DNA of 64,000 bases from assembly GCA_903834925.1 (NCBI GenBank), contig CAILLA010000138.1:1-64000 (forward strand). The letters are read 5' to 3'. Source of the DNA: an uncultured Schlesneria sp. GTDB taxonomy: Bacteria; Planctomycetota; Planctomycetia; Planctomycetales; Planctomycetaceae. The notes under the pieces were generated by a model. The model saw only the letters and a program-made list of their open reading frames with translations. It was not told the origin of the DNA and ran no database searches. How positions within the stretch are numbered: the first letter of the stretch is position 1; each line of letters starts with the position of its first letter. Both the position numbers and the translations under genes were made by a program. Shown one piece after another: positions 20,419 through 39,962 of the stretch.

Positions 20419-23400
20419 TCATCTCAACTGGTCCAGGATCGACGGATCTTGAATTTCGTGATCTTTCGCCAAAAGCAAAACCTTTGAAATCAATTCCGCC
20501 GTTCGTGGGTCGTCATCGGCGAACGGTAAAAACAATCGGCCGCGATGTTGAGCGTGAACCGGGATGATACAGATCGATCCACCTGGCATCCGATGAACGA
20601 TCGCGCTCCCTAAATGGACGGAATACTCCCCTAGCCTTCCCTTGATTAATGCGTGAACTCCCTTAATCCGCACGTTTTTCAAGCCAAGTAACTCGGTCGT
20701 TTCCCGCAACAGAGCCGTTCGCATTTCGACCGTCGATGCACTCGCCTCAGGGTCAACGCCGCCTCGATGAGCGACACTCACGACAAGATCAATGTCCCGC
20801 ATTACCTCGCTGAAAATCCTCACCGGAACCTCATTAAGCGGAGGTGGCTCCTTCTTGTCGCGATGCGCAAAACGGATTCCAGACAGCGTCAAACCTTCGA
20901 CTTCTGCTGCCGTACCCGCGTTATATTGAAAACCAACACTTGCAGTGATTCCAACATCGTGAAAGGTCTTGAAGACATCATCCTGAGTATTCCATCCCCG
21001 TGAATTCCAGAGCGCAAACCCTTGCGTCGGATTGATCTGCTGTCCTGCATATCGCTGCGACGCCGCTCCGTCCGATTGTTCCTGCTTAGTGACGACATAC
21101 AGTTCGCGAAAGACCTGCTTAAACGGTTGCATCCTTTCAGTAGTGAAACATTCATGCTGCCAACGATCCCAGTCTTTACGCTTGAGAAGATCAGCGGGAT
21201 GAGCTATTCGAAAATGGTCACCCTTCTTGATCGGTATTATCGTCCCGGCGTGATCGCGAAGTGACTTCCCTCTCTTGTCGAGGTATCCCATCCGTTTTTG
21301 ATCGGCATCGTCGACCAGCACCAGTCGTGTCAATAACGGAGCGAGAATCGCATGCTCGCTGAGCGTTTCCATCTCGGCCCCCGTAAATCGATCGCCTCGG
21401 CACATCGCCGCTTCGAGCGATTGCTTCATGCGCGATGCCTTCTTGCGTAACGCGGCCCCTCGTTCAAACAACTCGGCAATCTCGGCATGCTTCTTCTTGA
21501 TTGCAGGTGGAACCGACTTGAGCGTCTTATTCTCCCGTTGAATCGTCAGCTCCGGCTTCGCTTGTTCATCAAGGAACAGAGTGACGGTGACACCGTCTTT
21601 GGTCACAGCAACCGGCCCCTTGGCCAGGTCTTTAACCGCTTCAGCTTCCATCGCCCATTCAAATCGAAGCGGATCGGGATAGCCCGCCAGTCGAGCCAGA
21701 TTGTCGAACCCGATGTCGCAAGCCCGCATGGCACTTGGTCGCGTCAGTCCCGAAAGTTGTCGGGCGTATCGGCGGTATTCCTGAAGTACTTCGTATCGTT
21801 CGAGAATATCGCGATCTTGCTTCGTTCCCTTTGCCAGAGGTAACAGTCCAAGCAGTCGGACGTGTTCTTTTCGTTGCTTCTGCTGAATACTGTCGACCAG
21901 ATCCTGTTTTGGCGTATTTCCCAGCAGGACATCCGCTAGGAACTGAGCCTTCTTGGCTTGAGCCGGATTCGCGGCGTACCGAGCCGCGTCGGCCATTTGA
22001 TGCCACCGGTCGGAACCGAGTAACTCCCACGTCCGATGGAACCAGGCAACATCCACAGCCCCTTGTGTCCGCTCTTCGTCGGTCAGTGCCGTGCGTTCCA
22101 ACAACAATCGTTGCCAGGGGGTCAGCGTGCGTCGTGTAACTGTCGTTTCGGCAGCGTGATCTTCGGCGTCGTCGAGATCGTCATCCGCCGTAACATCTTT
22201 GGAAGAATCAACCTTTTCTTCCTGAATCCCTTCCGCCTCGGCCGCCGCGCTCTCGACCGATGAATTCCATCCGGTATCCATATGAGCGACGAACCAATAC
22301 AGCCCCTCGGCAAACCCCTTCCAATTCAGGTAACTTTCGACAAAACGCGTCCATTGAGGTGCGAGGAATGCCAGCTCCAACAACCGCTGCCCTGTGCAAT
22401 ACCCTTCCTTGATCGCTTGACTGACCAGCTTGTCGAACTCCGCTTGCTTGTCGCTTTCCATGGGATACGTTGACTGAAGTAAATGAGTCAGTGTCGAGCC
22501 GCGACTGGCATTATTCTGTCGCCAACTCGACCCCTTCTTCAGCTTCGCTTTGTCGATGGCCGACAACACACGGAACAACGTTGACATGCCAAAAAAGGAT
22601 TGGATCGAGAGAGCCAAAATTGTTGCGGGGGTCGCTGCTTCGCCGCGAGTCAACTCGATCTCCAACACGCGAGCTCGAATCCGGTCCAGCATCTCCGTGA
22701 TTTCAGGAAGATCCCGAATCTCTTTTGCACGGTCGTCGTCCATTGTTCGTTGAGTCAGATTGGCCAGGTCTGGGAACGTAGATCCATACTGTTCGATGTC
22801 GCGAGGTCCGATCAGCTGATCCATCAAATCATCCGACGTGGCGAACCCCAGTTTACGAGACTCTGCCACCCAGCGAAATTCTGGGCGATCACGTTTCGCA
22901 CCCGGTCGCGGTTCGTCCCGCCAATGCTCCAGCGACCAGAATCGCTGAAGCTGTTTGGGCGTGAGATCTTTCCGGCAAATCAATAGCGCAGCATTGAGAT
23001 CATCTCGCCAATATTCAAACAACTGCCATTGACGCCAGTCATCGTCCGTTTCCTGGCCGATCATGATCCGAAATTGCCGCATGTTATCGCTTGATACGAG
23101 TTTCTCACTTGGTTTCACCAGTTCTGAGTGCAAGTCGTCAGGCACCAGACTATAGGTGGTCTCGATGCGATCCAGCATCCAGTCAACGAATCCTTCCGGC
23201 GGATACAAGAACAGCAGCCACTCCAAAAGTTTGCTGACAAGAGATTCGTACTTCAACTTCAACCCGGAAACGTCGCCGATCACCTCTCGACAGATGGACT
23301 TTGCCTGTGCTGAACTTCTTGACCATTTTTGGATTTCGTCGTAGTCCCAGTGTCCGACCAGTTCCGACGTACAATAGGCTCGAAGGAGTTCCAGGCCATC

Positions 23401-25596
23401 ACGATCACGTAGCGATTTGGGGCGGTTCTTGTACCAGTCCGTCCAGACATCATTCAGCGGCAAGTGACGAATCTCTGTTTCGGGCGTCCCTTTTGTCCGA
23501 TCAAAACTGGGGAACCAATGGGTAACGTTTCCCAGCAATTCTTGGCGAGGCCCATCGTAAGCCTTGATTCTAATGGGCGTCTCACGGTGCTGATGAATCA
23601 ATTCGTCCAAGCCTTGCAGACACTTGAGTGCAGCGGGAGTGAACGATTCGCCCGGACGCCGTTTCGGAGCGATGACTGGCGACCGTTTTGTGGGGTCCAT
23701 CAGCCCGAGCCCGTTCTCCAGTGTAATGGCCTCTTGATCAGACTCGCCGATCGCACTGATTTGTGTCTGTTCTTCCTTGCTCAGATTCTTTCGAGTCTCG
23801 ACAAAAGTAATCGCTTTCTGTTGGCATTGCTGGCGTTCCCGATTCGCTTCGGAAAGGTGACGTAGGATTTCCAACCCGGCCAATCGTTGAGGGGCGTCTC
23901 TTGATCCGGTTAGTCGATCAGCGGTCGCCAGCGCCGCACTATCCTCTTGTTTCAACAGCAACTTGATCCCAGACTGCCGCAGGTCAGACGCCTTTCGAGT
24001 CATCAGTCCTTCCAGAGCCACAGCCTCGTCACCTGTTGGCACCTGTTGTATCAGTGACTCAAAGGCGGCCTGACGAACGTTCTGCGACGCATGTCCCGTC
24101 AGCGAAAACAGGGTCTCACGAGTCAGCTTGTCCCACTTTTTCTGTTGAGCCAATAATCGAACGGCATTCATTTGTTGCCACGAATCCATTCCCTTCAAAT
24201 AGGGGATAATACGAGTAACCGGCCGCTCTCCCAGCAATCCCAACAGTGCGGCGGCAACCGTTGACCGGTCTGCATTCCGTTCGGTCCATGGCCAGACAAG
24301 TGCTTTCAGCTTGAATGGCTTTTCCGGCAGGCGAAGATACAACCGCTCGGCCGCTTCAAATCCGTCAGTACTCTGTTCCTGCTCGTCGTCATTGCCTGCT
24401 ACTAGGGCCTCAAAATCCTCACCAACAGACAGGCCCGCCGATTGCTTCAGAGCACACAGTGCCACTTGAAGATTGGGGTCATCGATTGCGGGAGCTTTTG
24501 CCTGATTGGCGGCCTTGATATCCAGCAAGCCAAGATACCACGCAGCAACAAACCGAATTTCATCGGACTTGTGAGCGAGAAGTTTTGCGGCATGAGGAAT
24601 CGAGGCATGCGCGTCATCGAACCCAATACACCAAAGCGCTCGAAAGACCGTGTCCGGATTGTCGCTTTGAAGACCCTTCAGGCCTGCTGCGGGATCATCT
24701 AAGAAATGGAGCGTCTGTTTGATAATGTCGTTGATCACTTTGACAGAAACAGAATCCCACATCAGCCCCAGCCAGACATTGACCGCTCGTGTGACCGCAC
24801 TGAATCGAGCCAGGTCATGCTCCGCAATTAGCCTCAGCATCCGCCGAAAGGCAATAGGATGAGACTCGTCAACCGCATCCAGAATCGATTGCCGAAGTCC
24901 TTCCTGACGCTGTGCTGCCAGCAGCGTCTTTTCCATCAGTTCCCAGCCCTCTTCACGCGACGACATCAGCAGCGACTTGACGACATGAGAACCCATCGAA
25001 CCGATTTCGTGCTCGTTGGTCACCGATTGACGCAGAATCTCAAAAACCTCGCGTCCTTCCTTATCATCCGACTCGATCAGAGCTGCGAGCAATGGCCCGA
25101 CAACCGACGCCCCGTAGTCAAAGGCATAGGGTGTCCATTGAGCCAACCAGGACAGAGTAACGTCCTGCTCGCGGTAATTCACCAGGCGACTTTGTAATGT
25201 CTGCAGCCATTGAATACGCGATTCGAGTGTAACCGACGGATCACCCGGTGCTCGAAACGATTTTCTGCGGTAGCCAATCTGGTACGGAGTCGTCTTGAGT
25301 AATTGCCATGCCGCTTCAACCCAGTCTGCGAATCGAGGAAAGAAAAGGCGAAAAATCCGCGTTCGGTCTTTAGCCGATAGACGTTCCAGCTCAACCGCCG
25401 CTTGCAGGCGATTTTTATTTTTCATTTCCCAATCATCGATCTCCACTCCCTTTTCATCGTAGCCGAGAATTGCCATGGCGATTGATTTTTGAGATTTCGG
25501 AAGCTTTTTCGCCTCGACGAGAAACCGATCAACATTCCCTTCGGCCGAGAGTTTCCAATCCGCCAGTCGCTTTTCCGCCGCTTCTTTACTGAGCAT
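20419..25596 (-). CDS. DUF4132 domain giant protein with HEAT-like repeats
   Basis: A 1725-residue cytoplasmic protein with no signal peptide or membrane helix. The N-terminal 250 residues are helical. Residues about 290-650 look like HEAT/ARM repeats (for example NPDTVFRALWCIGFDDAHAS and SDEIRFVAAWYLGLL). The C-terminal third carries the DUF4132 segment known from E. coli YehI (RFTGAEMETLSEHAIL, then MGYLDKRGKSL, IAHPADLLKRKDW). The last 150 residues form a separate conserved block (IFSEVMRDIDLVVSVAHRGG to the end). In other bacteria DUF4132 genes often sit with MoxR ATPase, VWA and MolR/WGR genes, but none of those is here. The only candidate partner is the GG-tailed protein upstream at 25847-26272. 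AGGAAA precedes the ATG. Biochemical function unknown. Confidence 0.8.
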   Translation of the reverse strand: MLSKEAAEKRLADWKLSAEGNVDRFLVEAKKLPKSQKSIAMAILGYDEKGVEIDDWEMKNKNRLQAAVELERLSAKDRTRIFRLFFPRFADWVEAAWQLLKTTPYQIGYRRKSFRAPGDPSVTLESRIQWLQTLQSRLVNYREQDVTLSWLAQWTPYAFDYGASVVGPLLAALIESDDKEGREVFEILRQSVTNEHEIGSMGSHVVKSLLMSSREEGWELMEKTLLAAQRQEGLRQSILDAVDESHPIAFRRMLRLIAEHDLARFSAVTRAVNVWLGLMWDSVSVKVINDIIKQTLHFLDDPAAGLKGLQSDNPDTVFRALWCIGFDDAHASIPHAAKLLAHKSDEIRFVAAWYLGLLDIKAANQAKAPAIDDPNLQVALCALKQSAGLSVGEDFEALVAGNDDEQEQSTDGFEAAERLYLRLPEKPFKLKALVWPWTERNADRSTVAAALLGLLGERPVTRIIPYLKGMDSWQQMNAVRLLAQQKKWDKLTRETLFSLTGHASQNVRQAAFESLIQQVPTGDEAVALEGLMTRKASDLRQSGIKLLLKQEDSAALATADRLTGSRDAPQRLAGLEILRHLSEANRERQQCQQKAITFVETRKNLSKEEQTQISAIGESDQEAITLENGLGLMDPTKRSPVIAPKRRPGESFTPAALKCLQGLDELIHQHRETPIRIKAYDGPRQELLGNVTHWFPSFDRTKGTPETEIRHLPLNDVWTDWYKNRPKSLRDRDGLELLRAYCTSELVGHWDYDEIQKWSRSSAQAKSICREVIGDVSGLKLKYESLVSKLLEWLLFLYPPEGFVDWMLDRIETTYSLVPDDLHSELVKPSEKLVSSDNMRQFRIMIGQETDDDWRQWQLFEYWRDDLNAALLICRKDLTPKQLQRFWSLEHWRDEPRPGAKRDRPEFRWVAESRKLGFATSDDLMDQLIGPRDIEQYGSTFPDLANLTQRTMDDDRAKEIRDLPEITEMLDRIRARVLEIELTRGEAATPATILALSIQSFFGMSTLFRVLSAIDKAKLKKGSSWRQNNASRGSTLTHLLQSTYPMESDKQAEFDKLVSQAIKEGYCTGQRLLELAFLAPQWTRFVESYLNWKGFAEGLYWFVAHMDTGWNSSVESAAAEAEGIQEEKVDSSKDVTADDDLDDAEDHAAETTVTRRTLTPWQRLLLERTALTDEERTQGAVDVAWFHRTWELLGSDRWHQMADAARYAANPAQAKKAQFLADVLLGNTPKQDLVDSIQQKQRKEHVRLLGLLPLAKGTKQDRDILERYEVLQEYRRYARQLSGLTRPSAMRACDIGFDNLARLAGYPDPLRFEWAMEAEAVKDLAKGPVAVTKDGVTVTLFLDEQAKPELTIQRENKTLKSVPPAIKKKHAEIAELFERGAALRKKASRMKQSLEAAMCRGDRFTGAEMETLSEHAILAPLLTRLVLVDDADQKRMGYLDKRGKSLRDHAGTIIPIKKGDHFRIAHPADLLKRKDWDRWQHECFTTERMQPFKQVFRELYVVTKQEQSDGAASQRYAGQQINPTQGFALWNSRGWNTQDDVFKTFHDVGITASVGFQYNAGTAAEVEGLTLSGIRFAHRDKKEPPPLNEVPVRIFSEVMRDIDLVVSVAHRGGVDPEASASTVEMRTALLRETTELLGLKNVRIKGVHALIKGRLGEYSVHLGSAIVHRMPGGSICIIPVHAQHRGRLFLPFADDDPRTAELISKVLLLAKDHEIQDPSILDQLR

Positions 25597-25668
25597 CGCT
25601 TTTTCCTGTTTGGCTCACCTGTCTGGTATACAGACAAATTACGCCGATCACGAACAACCTGAAGCGGG

Positions 25669-25771
25669 CATTGCCCGCAACCCAATCCGGCGAAGATTTT
25701 GAATCACGAAATGCACGAAAAAATTAGTCGAGGCGAGCCGGCCGACGTAAGTCCCCGGATTCTTTTCTTCT
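25669..25771. repeat. Mosaic palindromic repeat (GCGGGC hairpin plus AGGCGAGCC element)
   Basis: The segment opens with a GCGGGC-ATT-GCCCGC hairpin, continues with a conserved spacer (a GAATCACGAAATGCACGAAA-like tract) and closes with AGGCGAGCC, a short palindrome and GGATTCTTTTCTTC. An almost identical mosaic lies at 29928-30035, and the second half occurs inverted at 39570-39608. Confidence 0.7.
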
Positions 25772-25846
25772 ACAGATTCTTTGCGCCACGCAAAGGAAAC
25801 AGACGTTAGTACTACAAACACCTTCTGGACGGTCAACAATGGCGAC

Positions 25847-26272
25847 TTAACCACCCGCCAAAAGCGTTAACCGTATAAAGACAATCTGGCTTTCGTCTTG
25901 GACGAACACCTGCTGATCGAGTTCCGTCTGTTCGATGCCATCAATTACCACAAGGTAGAGACCATCTTCGAACGCTTGCAAAGCGGTTCCTACAGCAGAT
26001 TCCGCATCGACCTCTTGGAGCGGAACATCACTGCCACCCGATTGGATTTTTCCTTTGACCGCCCCTGCCTCGATCTGCTTAGAGGTCAGTACATGAACGA
26101 ATTGCCGGTCAAGTTGCCGCTCCTTGAAGGCAGTGACTTCAGCACGAACGACCGATTCAATCAATTGCCGAAGTGTCACTCCATTGTCATCTCGAAATTC
26201 AGGAGGAATGGGAATCGACCAGTCCTCAAACAACTTCTTTTTCTGCCCGAGCGATTTTCCCACGATGACCAT
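25847..26272 (-). CDS. Small protein with beta-grasp-like tail ending in Gly-Gly (candidate ubiquitin-like protein)
   Basis: A 141-residue protein not recognised from a named family. It starts with two short strands (MVIVGKSL, FEDWSIPIPP), a helix (TLRQLIESVVRAEVTAF) and a strand (QFVHVLTSKQIEAG). It ends with the order strand-turn-strand seen in ThiS/MoaD/ubiquitin-like folds: LYLVVIDGIEQTEL, VQDESQIVFIRLTLLAGG. The last two residues, 140-141, are Gly-Gly immediately before the stop codon, as in activated Ubl proteins. GAGGGG lies 7 bases before the ATG. It is 250 bases upstream of, and on the same strand as, the DUF4132 gene, with a repeat between them. No E1, E2 or JAB-type gene is in the window. 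The Ubl call is inference from tail pattern and context. Confidence 0.6.
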   Translation of the reverse strand: MVIVGKSLGQKKKLFEDWSIPIPPEFRDDNGVTLRQLIESVVRAEVTAFKERQLDRQFVHVLTSKQIEAGAVKGKIQSGGSDVPLQEVDAESAVGTALQAFEDGLYLVVIDGIEQTELDQQVFVQDESQIVFIRLTLLAGG

Positions 26273-26554
26273 ACAAAACCCCTCGAAACGGAAAGCAAGA
26301 GAACGGATTCCAACGGACGGTCCAAGCCGAAAATTCGACAACACATAAAATGGGATGCGGAAAAGTGCGAGAAGTGTGCCGCGATTATGAAATTGCGCTC
26401 AAAACATTTCAACGCAGCGTTCGGTCATTCCATGTGAGCCCGACTTCGTTGTCTGACGGTTCCGTTGTGCGACGGTCTCCTGACCTCGCACAAGCAGCCG
26501 ACCGAAGGTCTCCTCTGCGCGTCTTCCGCTCGGTTGAGTGTCTTCGTCTCGATC

Positions 26555-26592
26555 GAGCACCTTCGGTCAGGTTGAGCACCTTCGGTCAGGTT
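26555..26592 (+). repeat. Two perfect tandem copies of a 19-bp unit
   Basis: The unit GAGCACCTTCGGTCAGGTT occurs at 26555-26573 and 26574-26592. Diverged fragments (GTCTTCCGCTCGGTTGAG) lie just upstream, so the array was probably longer. Confidence 0.8.
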
Positions 26593-26720
26593 GAGTGTAC
26601 TCTAAGGCAAACATGACGGAGCCACTAAAATCCCGAAGGTCGACCGCACTTCAAATTCCAACAGCAGATCACCCACCGACTCAAAAAACGAATGGTTAAC
26701 CCACATAAAATGTAATTCCC

Positions 26721-26821
26721 AGGCGAGCCGTGGATGTCAATCCACGGATTCTTCTCCTCGTCGATAAAACACGTCACAAACAAACCAGGCGAGCCGTGGA
26801 TGTCAATCCACGGATTCTTCT
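26721..26821. repeat. Two copies of the AGGCGAGCC palindromic element
   Basis: Two 35-bp copies, 66 bases apart, share AGGCGAG, an 8-bp perfect stem CCGTGGAT / ATCCACGG with loop GTCA (26728-26747 and 26794-26813) and the tail ATTCTTCT. Related copies at 25731, 29995 and 39570 keep the flanks but have a different stem (CCGGG / CCCGG). Confidence 0.8.
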
Positions 26822-26982
26822 CAATCGCCATGTCGAAAAACGTAGAAGACGACAAAATGTATACAAAAAACAACTTGCGTGTCAACCGTTTTCAACGAAC
26901 AGTTTCTTAACATTTGGAATGTGCTCATCAAAGAGCCACGAGGGTGCCACCACAGATCCACACAGATAATGAGGATTATGTC

Positions 26983-29927: not shown

Positions 29928-30035
29928 GTGCGGGCTTCGCCCGCAATCCAATCTGGAGAAGAATTTGAACCACGAAAAACACGAAAAAACAGTCGAGGCG
30001 AGCCGGGCGACGTAAGTCCCCGGATTCTTTTCTTC
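29928..30035. repeat. Mosaic palindromic repeat, copy of 25669-25771
   Basis: GCGGGC-TTC-GCCCGC hairpin, a conserved spacer with CACGAAAAACACGAAAAAAC, then AGGCGAGCC with stem CCGGG / CCCGG and the tail ATTCTTTTCTTC. The following 60 bases (GATTCTTCGCGCC, AAACGTTAGTA) are also shared with the copy at 25.7 kb. Confidence 0.75.
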
Positions 30036-39033: not shown

Positions 39034-39962
39034 ATTTTGAGCACGAGTCGTGTTGTGTGTGTTATTTTATAGGCGCTTGTCCTCGATTTCAAGCGAGAAT
39101 TGCCGTGAAACTTGATTTCTTCAAAAAGTTTGGCTCCGGACTCCGGTGGAGGATGAGTCGACTGTTCGTTGAGCTCAAGACGGATAGCGTCCGGCAGCGT
39201 CTCTGTACAAACATGATGACTGAGCGTGATTAAATCCGGGATTTTCGGTCAACTTGTTGTTGATCGACAGCCAGACGCATTCCACGGATTGCTGGCTGCG
39301 ACACATTTATTAAATAAACTCAAGAGGGTTTAGCTACTGATGCGCACAGCGCGGGCTTTGCCCGCAACTCAGAGGGAAGATCAAGCAGGAACAGCCGTGG
39401 GATAAGTCAATTGGCCTTCAGCGACCAGAAGAGGAAGAAATGAAAGGTTAGAACACTAATCCGCACTAATCTACGCTAATCAGAAAAGTCAAAATTCTTT
39501 TGATGTCTCTTGATTTGTATTCGTCTTACCAGCGTTCGATTTGTTTGCAGGGTGCGAAGAAACTGTGGAAGAAAAGAATCCGGGGACTTACGTCGCCCGG
39601 CTCGCCTGGCCAACGTGCGAATGATAACCCAATTCTGAACCGGTCGTCCGGCTCGCTTGAACCGGCTGTGCAGGCTTACGCTACCCGGCTCGACTGGACT
39701 GATTTTTTTCGTGTTTTTGGTTTTTTTCGTGGTTCAAATTCTTCTCGAATTCGGGTTGCTGGCGACGCCCGCGCCAGGCGATTCGTCAGAGTCGTGGTTA
39801 AGAATCTTTTTGAATACTGTGGGTTCTTGATGTTATGGTGGGACATCGAAGACTTGTCCCACCCTACGAATTTCGACTACAAATTCAGGCCACGAATTTC
39901 GACGAAACCGAATCAAGACTCGGGTGGTACCTCGCCCTCCCGATGAAAAGAATTGCTGGTGG
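39034..39962. other. 930-bp intergenic region made of repeats, no gene supported
   Basis: Upstream of the signalling cluster. 39034-39330 is free of recognised repeats and probably holds the cluster promoter. 39349-39530 is a GCGGGC hairpin followed by a mosaic repeat copy. 39570-39608 is an inverted AGGCGAGCC element. 39640-39700 holds further GGCTCGAC/CCGGCTCG words. 39837-39863 is a GGTGGGAC / GTCCCACC hairpin related to 20282. No ORF has a convincing start. Confidence 0.55.

Follow-up and report, generated by a model that had tools for sequence, protein, structure and literature searches.

A small ubiquitin/MoaD-like protein and its giant DUF4132-DUF7737 neighbour look like a damage-response module rather than an obvious protein tag

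The stretch of DNA analysed here (the window, 64,000 nucleotides) is part of contig CAILLA010000138.1 (C138 in our numbering) of an uncultured Schlesneria sp. from the Planctomycetales, whose genome assembly, GCA_903834925.1, comprises 9.0 Mb in 307 contigs. Its subject is a pair of genes on the minus strand, one encoding a small protein and the other a giant protein (Table 1). An earlier note on this DNA had described a 141-residue open reading frame (ORF) ending in Gly-Gly and lying upstream of a 1725-residue HEAT/DUF4132 protein on the same strand, and had suggested that its product might be a ubiquitin-like partner or modifier acting with the giant. The ORFs and their translations confirm this arrangement: the small protein closes with VFIRLTLLAGG, followed at once by TAA, and the good ribosome binding site that had been pointed out corresponds to a GAGGGG stretch six bases 5' of the ATG. 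Below, handles beginning with L, G, and C denote loci, genomes, and contigs of our collection.

Table 1. Features of the pair and its surroundings in the window
Feature	Position	Strand	Remarks
Small protein (most likely beta-grasp, ubiquitin/MoaD-like)	25847..26272	-	141 aa; ATG at 26272; stop included
Giant partner	20419..25596	-	1725 aa; HEAT, DUF5724, DUF4132, DUF7737 (Pfam scan; same-strand pairing elsewhere)
Part of giant aligned to shorter partners (residues 1352-1725)	20419..21543	-	DUF4132, middle stretch, DUF7737; blastp
Intergenic spacer, small gene to giant	25597..25846	-	250 bases; contains one copy of a 23-base repeat
Upstream region scanned for operator	26273..26572	-	no motif clearly common to own recA/lexA promoters

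It is clear from the survey of neighbourhoods that the small protein and the DUF4132 protein are conserved partners, as the earlier note had supposed. A single-sequence search yielded 61 loci on GTDB contigs out of 129 stretches matching the search pattern, and the long giant adjoins the small gene at 56 of these, on the same strand in every case (56/56). Four of the five exceptions (L043, L059, L060, and L090) are close to the end of a contig; the fifth, L041, is an orphan small gene within 20 kb of sequence. Within the organism's own order, 31 of 37 small genes stand within 6.5 kb of a DUF7737 match, all 31 on the same strand; among the other six, those in G062, G147, G163, and G008 (C96) are split or cut by a contig end, G134 has a partial match, and in G152 (C50) the two are truly apart, the DUF7737 match lying on a different contig. 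Across the 170 genomes of the order, DUF7737 is present in 28 of 30 carriers of the small gene and in 4 other genomes (Fisher 2e-25), and DUF4132 is present in 29 of the 30 carriers (Fisher 4e-23). These Fisher values overstate independence because the genomes are related, and the spread of the pair across phyla is the stronger argument for pairing. DUF7737 tracks the small family better than DUF4132 does: 27 of 58 DUF4132 places in the order have no small gene within 6.5 kb, a few of them being fragments or split pairs, compared with 10 of 41 DUF7737 places, fragments among them.

The pairing is not tied to one gene order or to one size of partner. The giant comes first, with the pair kept, at L052, L063, L064, L069, L094, and L108; among loci with the long giant, this order is seen at L052 and three Sphingobacterium loci. 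A second branch of the small family, with 27-33% identity to the window protein, adjoins a shorter partner of roughly 550-1280 residues read from stop to stop (318 in L093), again in both gene orders, and the two shorter partners that were scanned contain DUF4132 and DUF7737 and lack DUF5724. When the 977 ORFs of 80 neighbourhoods were clustered, the giant and the small protein were the only widespread families. Most of these loci were found through peptide patterns taken from one query, and close relatives, including near copies within a genus, are therefore over-represented; in the scripts an ORF ran either between stops or from its first start codon, which makes the gene distances in the census of C termini described below rough. 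As a separate observation, a much smaller DUF4132 protein, with open frames of 276-353 aa, occurs in eight genomes of the order (G012, G015, G025, G032, G033, G077, G120, and G162) with no small beta-grasp gene nearby.

At the limits used, the small protein falls into no Pfam, NCBIfam, or PADLOC family, and scanning 70 relatives singly gave no consistent Pfam match; only two of the 70 matched the ThiS/MoaD family PF02597 at E <= 1, the best at E 0.17. Sequence searches of the PDB with profiles of both proteins likewise returned no significant match. Related ORFs without internal stops were nevertheless found in 24 of the 170 genomes of the order by single-sequence search, as well as at the 61 loci on GTDB contigs, and the small ORF is therefore beyond chance. 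A profile built from 70 members raised the first figure to 30 of 170 and found relatives in 11 of 199 genomes sampled from the phylum. The family spans ten NCBI phylum names (Planctomycetota, Verrucomicrobiota, Lentisphaerota, Armatimonadota, Chloroflexota, Cyanobacteriota, Deinococcota, Bacillota, Bacteroidota, and Pseudomonadota), many of the records being metagenome bins, and the actinomycete Nonomuraea is an additional carrier. No row of the 70-row alignment of the family (A1) departs from Phe101, Leu138, or Gly140; L059, with its ending RSS, is outside this alignment.

Structure prediction and fold searches favour the ubiquitin-like fold that the earlier note had read from the end of the small protein, with middling scores. 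An AlphaFold2 model based on 70 aligned sequences reached a mean predicted local distance difference test (pLDDT) score of 76.5 and a predicted TM score (pTM) of 0.69. The modelled order of elements, with strands at residues 2-7 and 15-19, a helix at 34-58, a helical insert, and strands at 106-110, 113-115, and 129-134, is that of a beta-grasp with a helical insert, and the last three residues are predicted to be disordered, residues 139-141 being one of two stretches with pLDDT <50. Foldseek returned no match in the PDB at E 0.001, its best rows being ubiquitin or ubiquitin-like proteins from E 0.14 upward. The VIA-align 2 (VIA) list is headed by a chain of the human U11 small nuclear ribonucleoprotein, presumably a ubiquitin-like protein (Z 8.0, root-mean-square deviation [rmsd] 3.2, 86 aligned), and has close behind it MoaD of human molybdopterin synthase (5mpo_B; Z 7.6, rmsd 3.7, 80 aligned) and Urm1 (7q5n_G; Z 6.9, rmsd 3.8, 91 aligned). 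The 50 rows shown range from Z 6.0 to 8.0, where values <8 can reflect a common arrangement, and are mostly ubiquitin-fold chains such as ubiquitin, NEDD8, ISG15, MoaD, and SAMP1. For the Deinococcus radiodurans homologue, PMC9650054 lists 5MPO, 3PO0, 1WGK, 1VJK, and 6JBZ as structural matches; the first four also appear in our VIA list and 6JBZ in our Foldseek list. Given the modelled strand order and these structural matches, we hold with moderate confidence that the protein has a ubiquitin-like beta-grasp, and a ubiquitin/MoaD-like fold is its most likely form.

The C terminus tells a different story from that expected of a conjugated modifier. We took a census of 104 loci with a closed C terminus, leaving out 19 short loci that duplicate longer ones, L107 (on the same contig as L033), L090 with its open end, and loci that had been collected for other reasons, and keeping near copies within a genus. 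The protein ends in GG at 61 loci, GA at 14, GM at 1, a single G at 1, RSS at 1 (L059), and at 26 in an extended tail with two or more extra residues (e.g., SLW, RMW, SYW, MRY, or GLW). The extensions begin with S, R, M, T, L, or G, and there is therefore no constant cleavage site. Endings other than GG thus occur at 43 of the 104 loci, 40 of which have the partner in view, and on a tree of 83 partner proteins, of the quick kind, the GG label changes at least eight times (seven of the changes forced by well-supported branches), the GA label seven times, and the extended form once. Given the census and the tree, the partner is retained although the last Gly is variable. The short-partner branch differs in having GG in all 20 tree rows and also in L115, which is placed apart. 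A conserved Gly-Gly terminus is accordingly a feature of that branch alone and not of the family, and we reject it as a conserved conjugation signal. The earlier note had named homologues lacking Gly-Gly as one of the findings that would count against its proposal, and this is what the census returned; since the Gly-Gly ending fails in this way, we do not class the small protein as a ubiquitin-like modifier. Conjugation is made unlikely by this, although some modifiers, such as UFM1 and ATG8, do use single-Gly tails.

An E1 that would act on such a tail is also not apparent near the pair. The window had been noted to contain no E1, and this absence extends to the whole contig, on which there is no ThiF-type match; two ThiF genes are encoded elsewhere in the genome (C128 and C229). 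No E1-like cluster recurs in the 80 neighbourhoods, as judged by eye from the printed clusters.

The giant belongs firmly to the DUF4132 family (PF13569, 138.7 bits against a gathering score of 27). The Pfam scan found DUF5724 (E 1e-201), DUF4132 (E 3e-40), DUF7737 (E 8e-36), and HEAT_2 (E 4e-8), and the part shared with the shorter partners is the C-terminal one given in Table 1, although for some other long partners the match begins somewhat before the equivalent of residue 1352. The alignment of partners (A3) has 30 invariant columns, 13 of them charged, with motifs QPFKQ..RE.Y, SE...D.DL, GS, PF...D, and a D..I.D.....Q ending. A model of residues 1170-1725 from 54 sequences has a pLDDT of 86.8. 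Foldseek found nothing for it at E 0.001 in either the PDB or a viral library. The VIA matches (Z up to 7.8) fall mainly on the helical part, residues 17-137 of the modelled piece, and barely touch DUF4132-DUF7737 proper. From its invariant charged motifs, the DUF4132-DUF7737 part looks enzymatic, and we claim no particular reaction for it.

In D. radiodurans, PMC8533742 places a putative drA0165-drA0166 operon, with DUF4132 in DRA0166, in the DdrO (radiation/desiccation) regulon, with a radiation/desiccation response motif (RDRM) at -83; the pair is upregulated on DdrO depletion, and mitomycin C raises DRA0166 protein in the wild type and not in an irrE mutant. In the record NZ_OV024759.1 (L110), which bears other locus tags, trxC is followed by a 134-aa homologue of the small protein ending in TALAGG and, two bases further on, by the start of a DUF5724/DUF4132/DUF7737 protein. 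The printed RDRM is found exactly at L110:7904-7923, about 80 bases upstream of drA0165 (0.00 expected by chance in the locus). The pair studied here is therefore the drA0165-drA0166 pair of D. radiodurans. An RDRM precedes the pair in all four Deinococcus plasmid records, three times exactly and once with two mismatches; besides D. radiodurans, the exact core is present in D. psychrotolerans and Deinococcus sp. D7000, and the mismatches are in D. ficus.

The small protein of this operon was studied separately as SEP068184 (DR_A0165) in PMC9650054, which describes it as absent outside Deinococcus and as lacking an RDRM. Both statements conflict with the sequences presented here, and the second conflicts with PMC8533742 as well. 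According to the same paper, gamma rays and peroxide increase the level of the protein; deletion of drA0165 is viable, leaves drA0166 expression unchanged, and raises peroxide survival; and SEP068184 pulls down Trx1 (DR_A0164), with Rsr among 157 co-precipitated proteins.

A second line of evidence comes from the Bacillota. A LexA-type box, CGAACAA[A/G]CATTCG, stands 103-105 bases upstream in all five Paenibacillus loci (0.005 expected per 200 bases in these genera); the five loci are close relatives, and the flanks of the box vary more than the box itself. For comparison, the Firmicute LexA consensus is given as CGAACRNRYGTTYC in PMC2248561. The pattern CGAACNNNCRTTCG, picked after the site had been seen, has three matches in the 5.3 Mb of P. 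terrae, against 20 for a reversed control pattern, and the three lie at the pair, just upstream of recA, and upstream of a run of genes that contains argR. A truncated ORF in this run probably encodes RecN (AAA_23 above its cut-off; SMC_N at E 1e-7, below its cut-off). A LexA-like scan matched 6 of 59 upstream regions where about 0.7 would be expected at the background of all loci; further single LexA-like sites at L049, L043, and L047 are not counted as evidence. The pair thus carries damage-type boxes upstream in two phyla.

Beyond the two genes themselves, the neighbourhoods offer hints rather than a further component. By eye, the larger remaining clusters look like ABC transporters, response regulators, pilin-like proteins, sulfatases, and small-gene antisense ORFs. 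RlaP, which Pfam describes as an RNA repair pathway DNA polymerase beta family, is encoded within 10 kb of the pair at four Paenibacillus loci (L067, L070, L071, and L072) and three Flavobacterium loci (L081, L083, and L085), and the single RlaP gene in the 5.3 Mb of P. terrae is the one near the pair. A TatD nuclease is near the pair at four Paenibacillus loci and one Flavobacterium locus, an RNA ligase (RLIG1, E 9e-7) is present at L081 and L083, and L081 also has an RNase_T exonuclease and a calcineurin-like phosphoesterase. The RlaP association was picked out post hoc, as one family among many, and transporter genes lie between it and the pair in Paenibacillus; these RNA-repair genes are a lead and not a third component.

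A phage or defence system was considered and rejected. PADLOC-DB returned no family for the two window proteins, four relatives, or Escherichia coli YehI; the shorter partner L095, the protein used as query there, had no match in phage records at E 1e-4; and the profile of the small family gave no confirmed viral contig in a search by a single peptide pattern. Against this rejection stands phrog_20839 (947 positions, function unknown), which matches residues 373-633 of L095:10215-12857 at E 1e-21. A recurring thioredoxin partner was also discarded: trxC is the neighbour of the pair in the record of D. radiodurans and is not annotated beside it in those of D. psychrotolerans, D. ficus, or Deinococcus sp. 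D7000.

Some further features were seen around individual pairs. At L112:6239-13996, on a Bacteroides finegoldii plasmid, a rhomboid protease gene lies upstream and a GAF-domain gene downstream of the pair, all on the same strand. The window itself contains three exact copies of a 23-base sequence (25745-25767 and 30010-30032 on the minus strand and 39571-39593 on the plus strand; 0.00 expected), which looks like a dispersed intergenic repeat, one copy of it lying between the genes of the pair. Part of a perfect 38-base direct repeat upstream of the pair (26719-26756 and 26785-26822, 66 bases apart) is similar to it.

Comparison with known systems places the pair close to the Deinococcus proteins and apart from the others. 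SEP068184 belongs to the same family by profile (E 1e-37) and to the same fold class, and its gene lies directly upstream of the DUF4132 giant; what PMC9650054 presents as Deinococcus-specific is here found under ten phylum names, and the giant is mentioned in the available part of that paper only as the downstream gene. For drA0165-drA0166, the Deinococcus version of the pair, the corresponding part of PMC8533742 offers no function beyond a possible molybdopterin link and draws no connection to a wider family. The earlier statement that no such system had been described therefore stands for the wider family and the conserved pairing, for which no description appears among the matches listed in open-licence literature, and falls for the Deinococcus members, which had been published separately. 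With MoaD, ThiS, Urm1, and SAMP1, the small family shares its predicted fold and a flexible C-terminal tail that often ends in GG, but it does not keep the last Gly, has a long helical insert, has no recurring E1 neighbour in view, and shows no significant sequence match to them. The likeness to Hub1, a ubiquitin-like eukaryotic splicing factor that binds its partner non-covalently (PMC4141198) and has no DUF4132 partner, is one of mode only. The E. coli protein MolR/YehI has DUF4132 in common with the window giant, but it has no DUF5724 or DUF7737 match, whereas the giant has both, and the neighbours of yehI are MoxR, VWA, and SWIM genes. The earlier note had pointed to this MoxR/VWA/MolR setting, and it does not apply here: 27 kb around yehI, including the small gene yehK, contain no relative of the small family (best E 1.6), a Pfam scan of ten window ORFs between 15336 and 36700 found no MoxR, VWA, or SWIM, and the clustering of neighbourhoods, together with the contrast to yehI-yehQ, excludes such a context.

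The reading that we favour, and regard as reasonably probable, is that the pair forms a two-protein module: a DUF4132-DUF7737 machine serving the response to nucleic-acid damage, to which the small protein belongs as a non-covalent beta-grasp subunit. The tail of MoaD is known to enter MoaE, and a comparable docking of the tail or of the surface, as in MoaD-MoaE or Hub1 and its partner, may hold here. The subunit, with its flexible C-terminal tail, would bind the giant non-covalently, and the dock would likely be the C-terminal DUF4132-DUF7737 part, since that part is common to both partner types. A conserved groove or an active site in this presumably enzymatic part would take up the tail's nearly invariant L-x-G, leaving the last residue and the short aromatic extensions free to vary. 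The module would be made, or made more, upon nucleic-acid damage and act in that response, under the control of DdrO/IrrE in Deinococcus and probably of LexA in Paenibacillus, and RNA repair may be one branch of the response.

Several observations weigh against this. No clear damage operator lies upstream of the window's own pair: the upstream regions of the genome's recA, lexA, and pair have at most one common 10-mer (CATGGAATGA, in recA and the pair), which we estimate to be within chance. The RDRM is missing upstream of the pair in a Deinococcales metagenome-assembled genome (L066), the Paenibacillus box was found at one mismatch in none of the seven other Bacillota loci scanned, and the P. 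terrae pattern was chosen after the fact. Of ten genomes tested, four have RlaP near the pair, three have it at another place, and three lack it. The fold scores stop at the best values of E 0.14 and Z 8.0, one split pair (G152) and one orphan small gene (L041) exist, and the unbroken GG of the short-partner branch is explicable by chemistry. Finally, the co-immunoprecipitation section of PMC9650054, as far as it is available, names Trx1, Rsr, and others, and not DR_A0166.

A first competing explanation makes the small protein a genuine ubiquitin-like modifier or a sulfur carrier. A general E1 of the ThiF/MoeB type, encoded at another place in the genome, would activate its terminal Gly, with DUF4132-DUF7737 acting as ligase, protease, or sulfur acceptor and the lineages without GG using a trimmed, single-Gly tail in the manner of UFM1 or ATG8. 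GG is after all the commonest ending, without exception among the short-partner loci seen, Gly140 is invariant in A1, residues 139-141 are modelled as flexible, and the genome does encode two ThiF proteins. We nonetheless consider it unlikely, as GA, GM, single-G, RSS, and extended endings are tolerated with the partner still in view at 40 of 43 loci, the tree requires repeated switches between GG and other endings, the extensions offer no constant cleavage site, and no E1-like gene recurs beside the pair in the 80 neighbourhoods, as far as the printed clusters judged by eye go. The small protein might instead be a chaperone or antitoxin-like inhibitor of a toxic giant, the module being a damage-triggered effector. 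A two-gene unit with only two bases between the genes in some Deinococcus records and the raised peroxide survival of the drA0165 deletion (PMC9650054) would suit this explanation, which we rate as quite unlikely: according to the same source, the deletion is viable and leaves drA0166 expression as it was, a result at odds with an essential antitoxin, and the lack of a PADLOC family, the failure to find the shorter partner in phage records or to confirm the small protein in viral contigs, and the orphan small gene at L041 speak against it as well. A role of the small protein mainly as a thioredoxin regulator, which was proposed for SEP068184, with the giant an incidental neighbour, is very improbable; the Trx1 pull-down and the peroxide phenotype of PMC9650054 point that way, but among the four Deinococcus records trxC is annotated beside the pair in D. 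radiodurans alone while the giant is kept in all, and no trx cluster stands out in the other neighbourhoods.

A bolder version of the module, which we put forward only as a doubtful possibility, is that of a widespread, undescribed damage machine in which DUF4132-DUF7737 is a new enzyme, perhaps of RNA repair, with an active site that takes the C-terminal tail of its dedicated beta-grasp protein as a carrier or switch. If true, a module with lineage-relaxed tail chemistry would bridge sulfur-carrier and modifier proteins on the one hand and purely structural ubiquitin-like partners on the other. What the pair resembles is a module of the damage response more than an evident protein tag, and two groups of uncharacterised proteins thereby become one testable module. 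The widely annotated DUF4132 gains a partner and a regulatory context, and a D. radiodurans stress protein reported as Deinococcus-specific becomes a family found under ten NCBI phylum names and in an actinomycete. The natural series of tails from GG through GA to aromatic extensions also allows one to ask how a ubiquitin-like protein gives up or avoids the chemistry of its tail.

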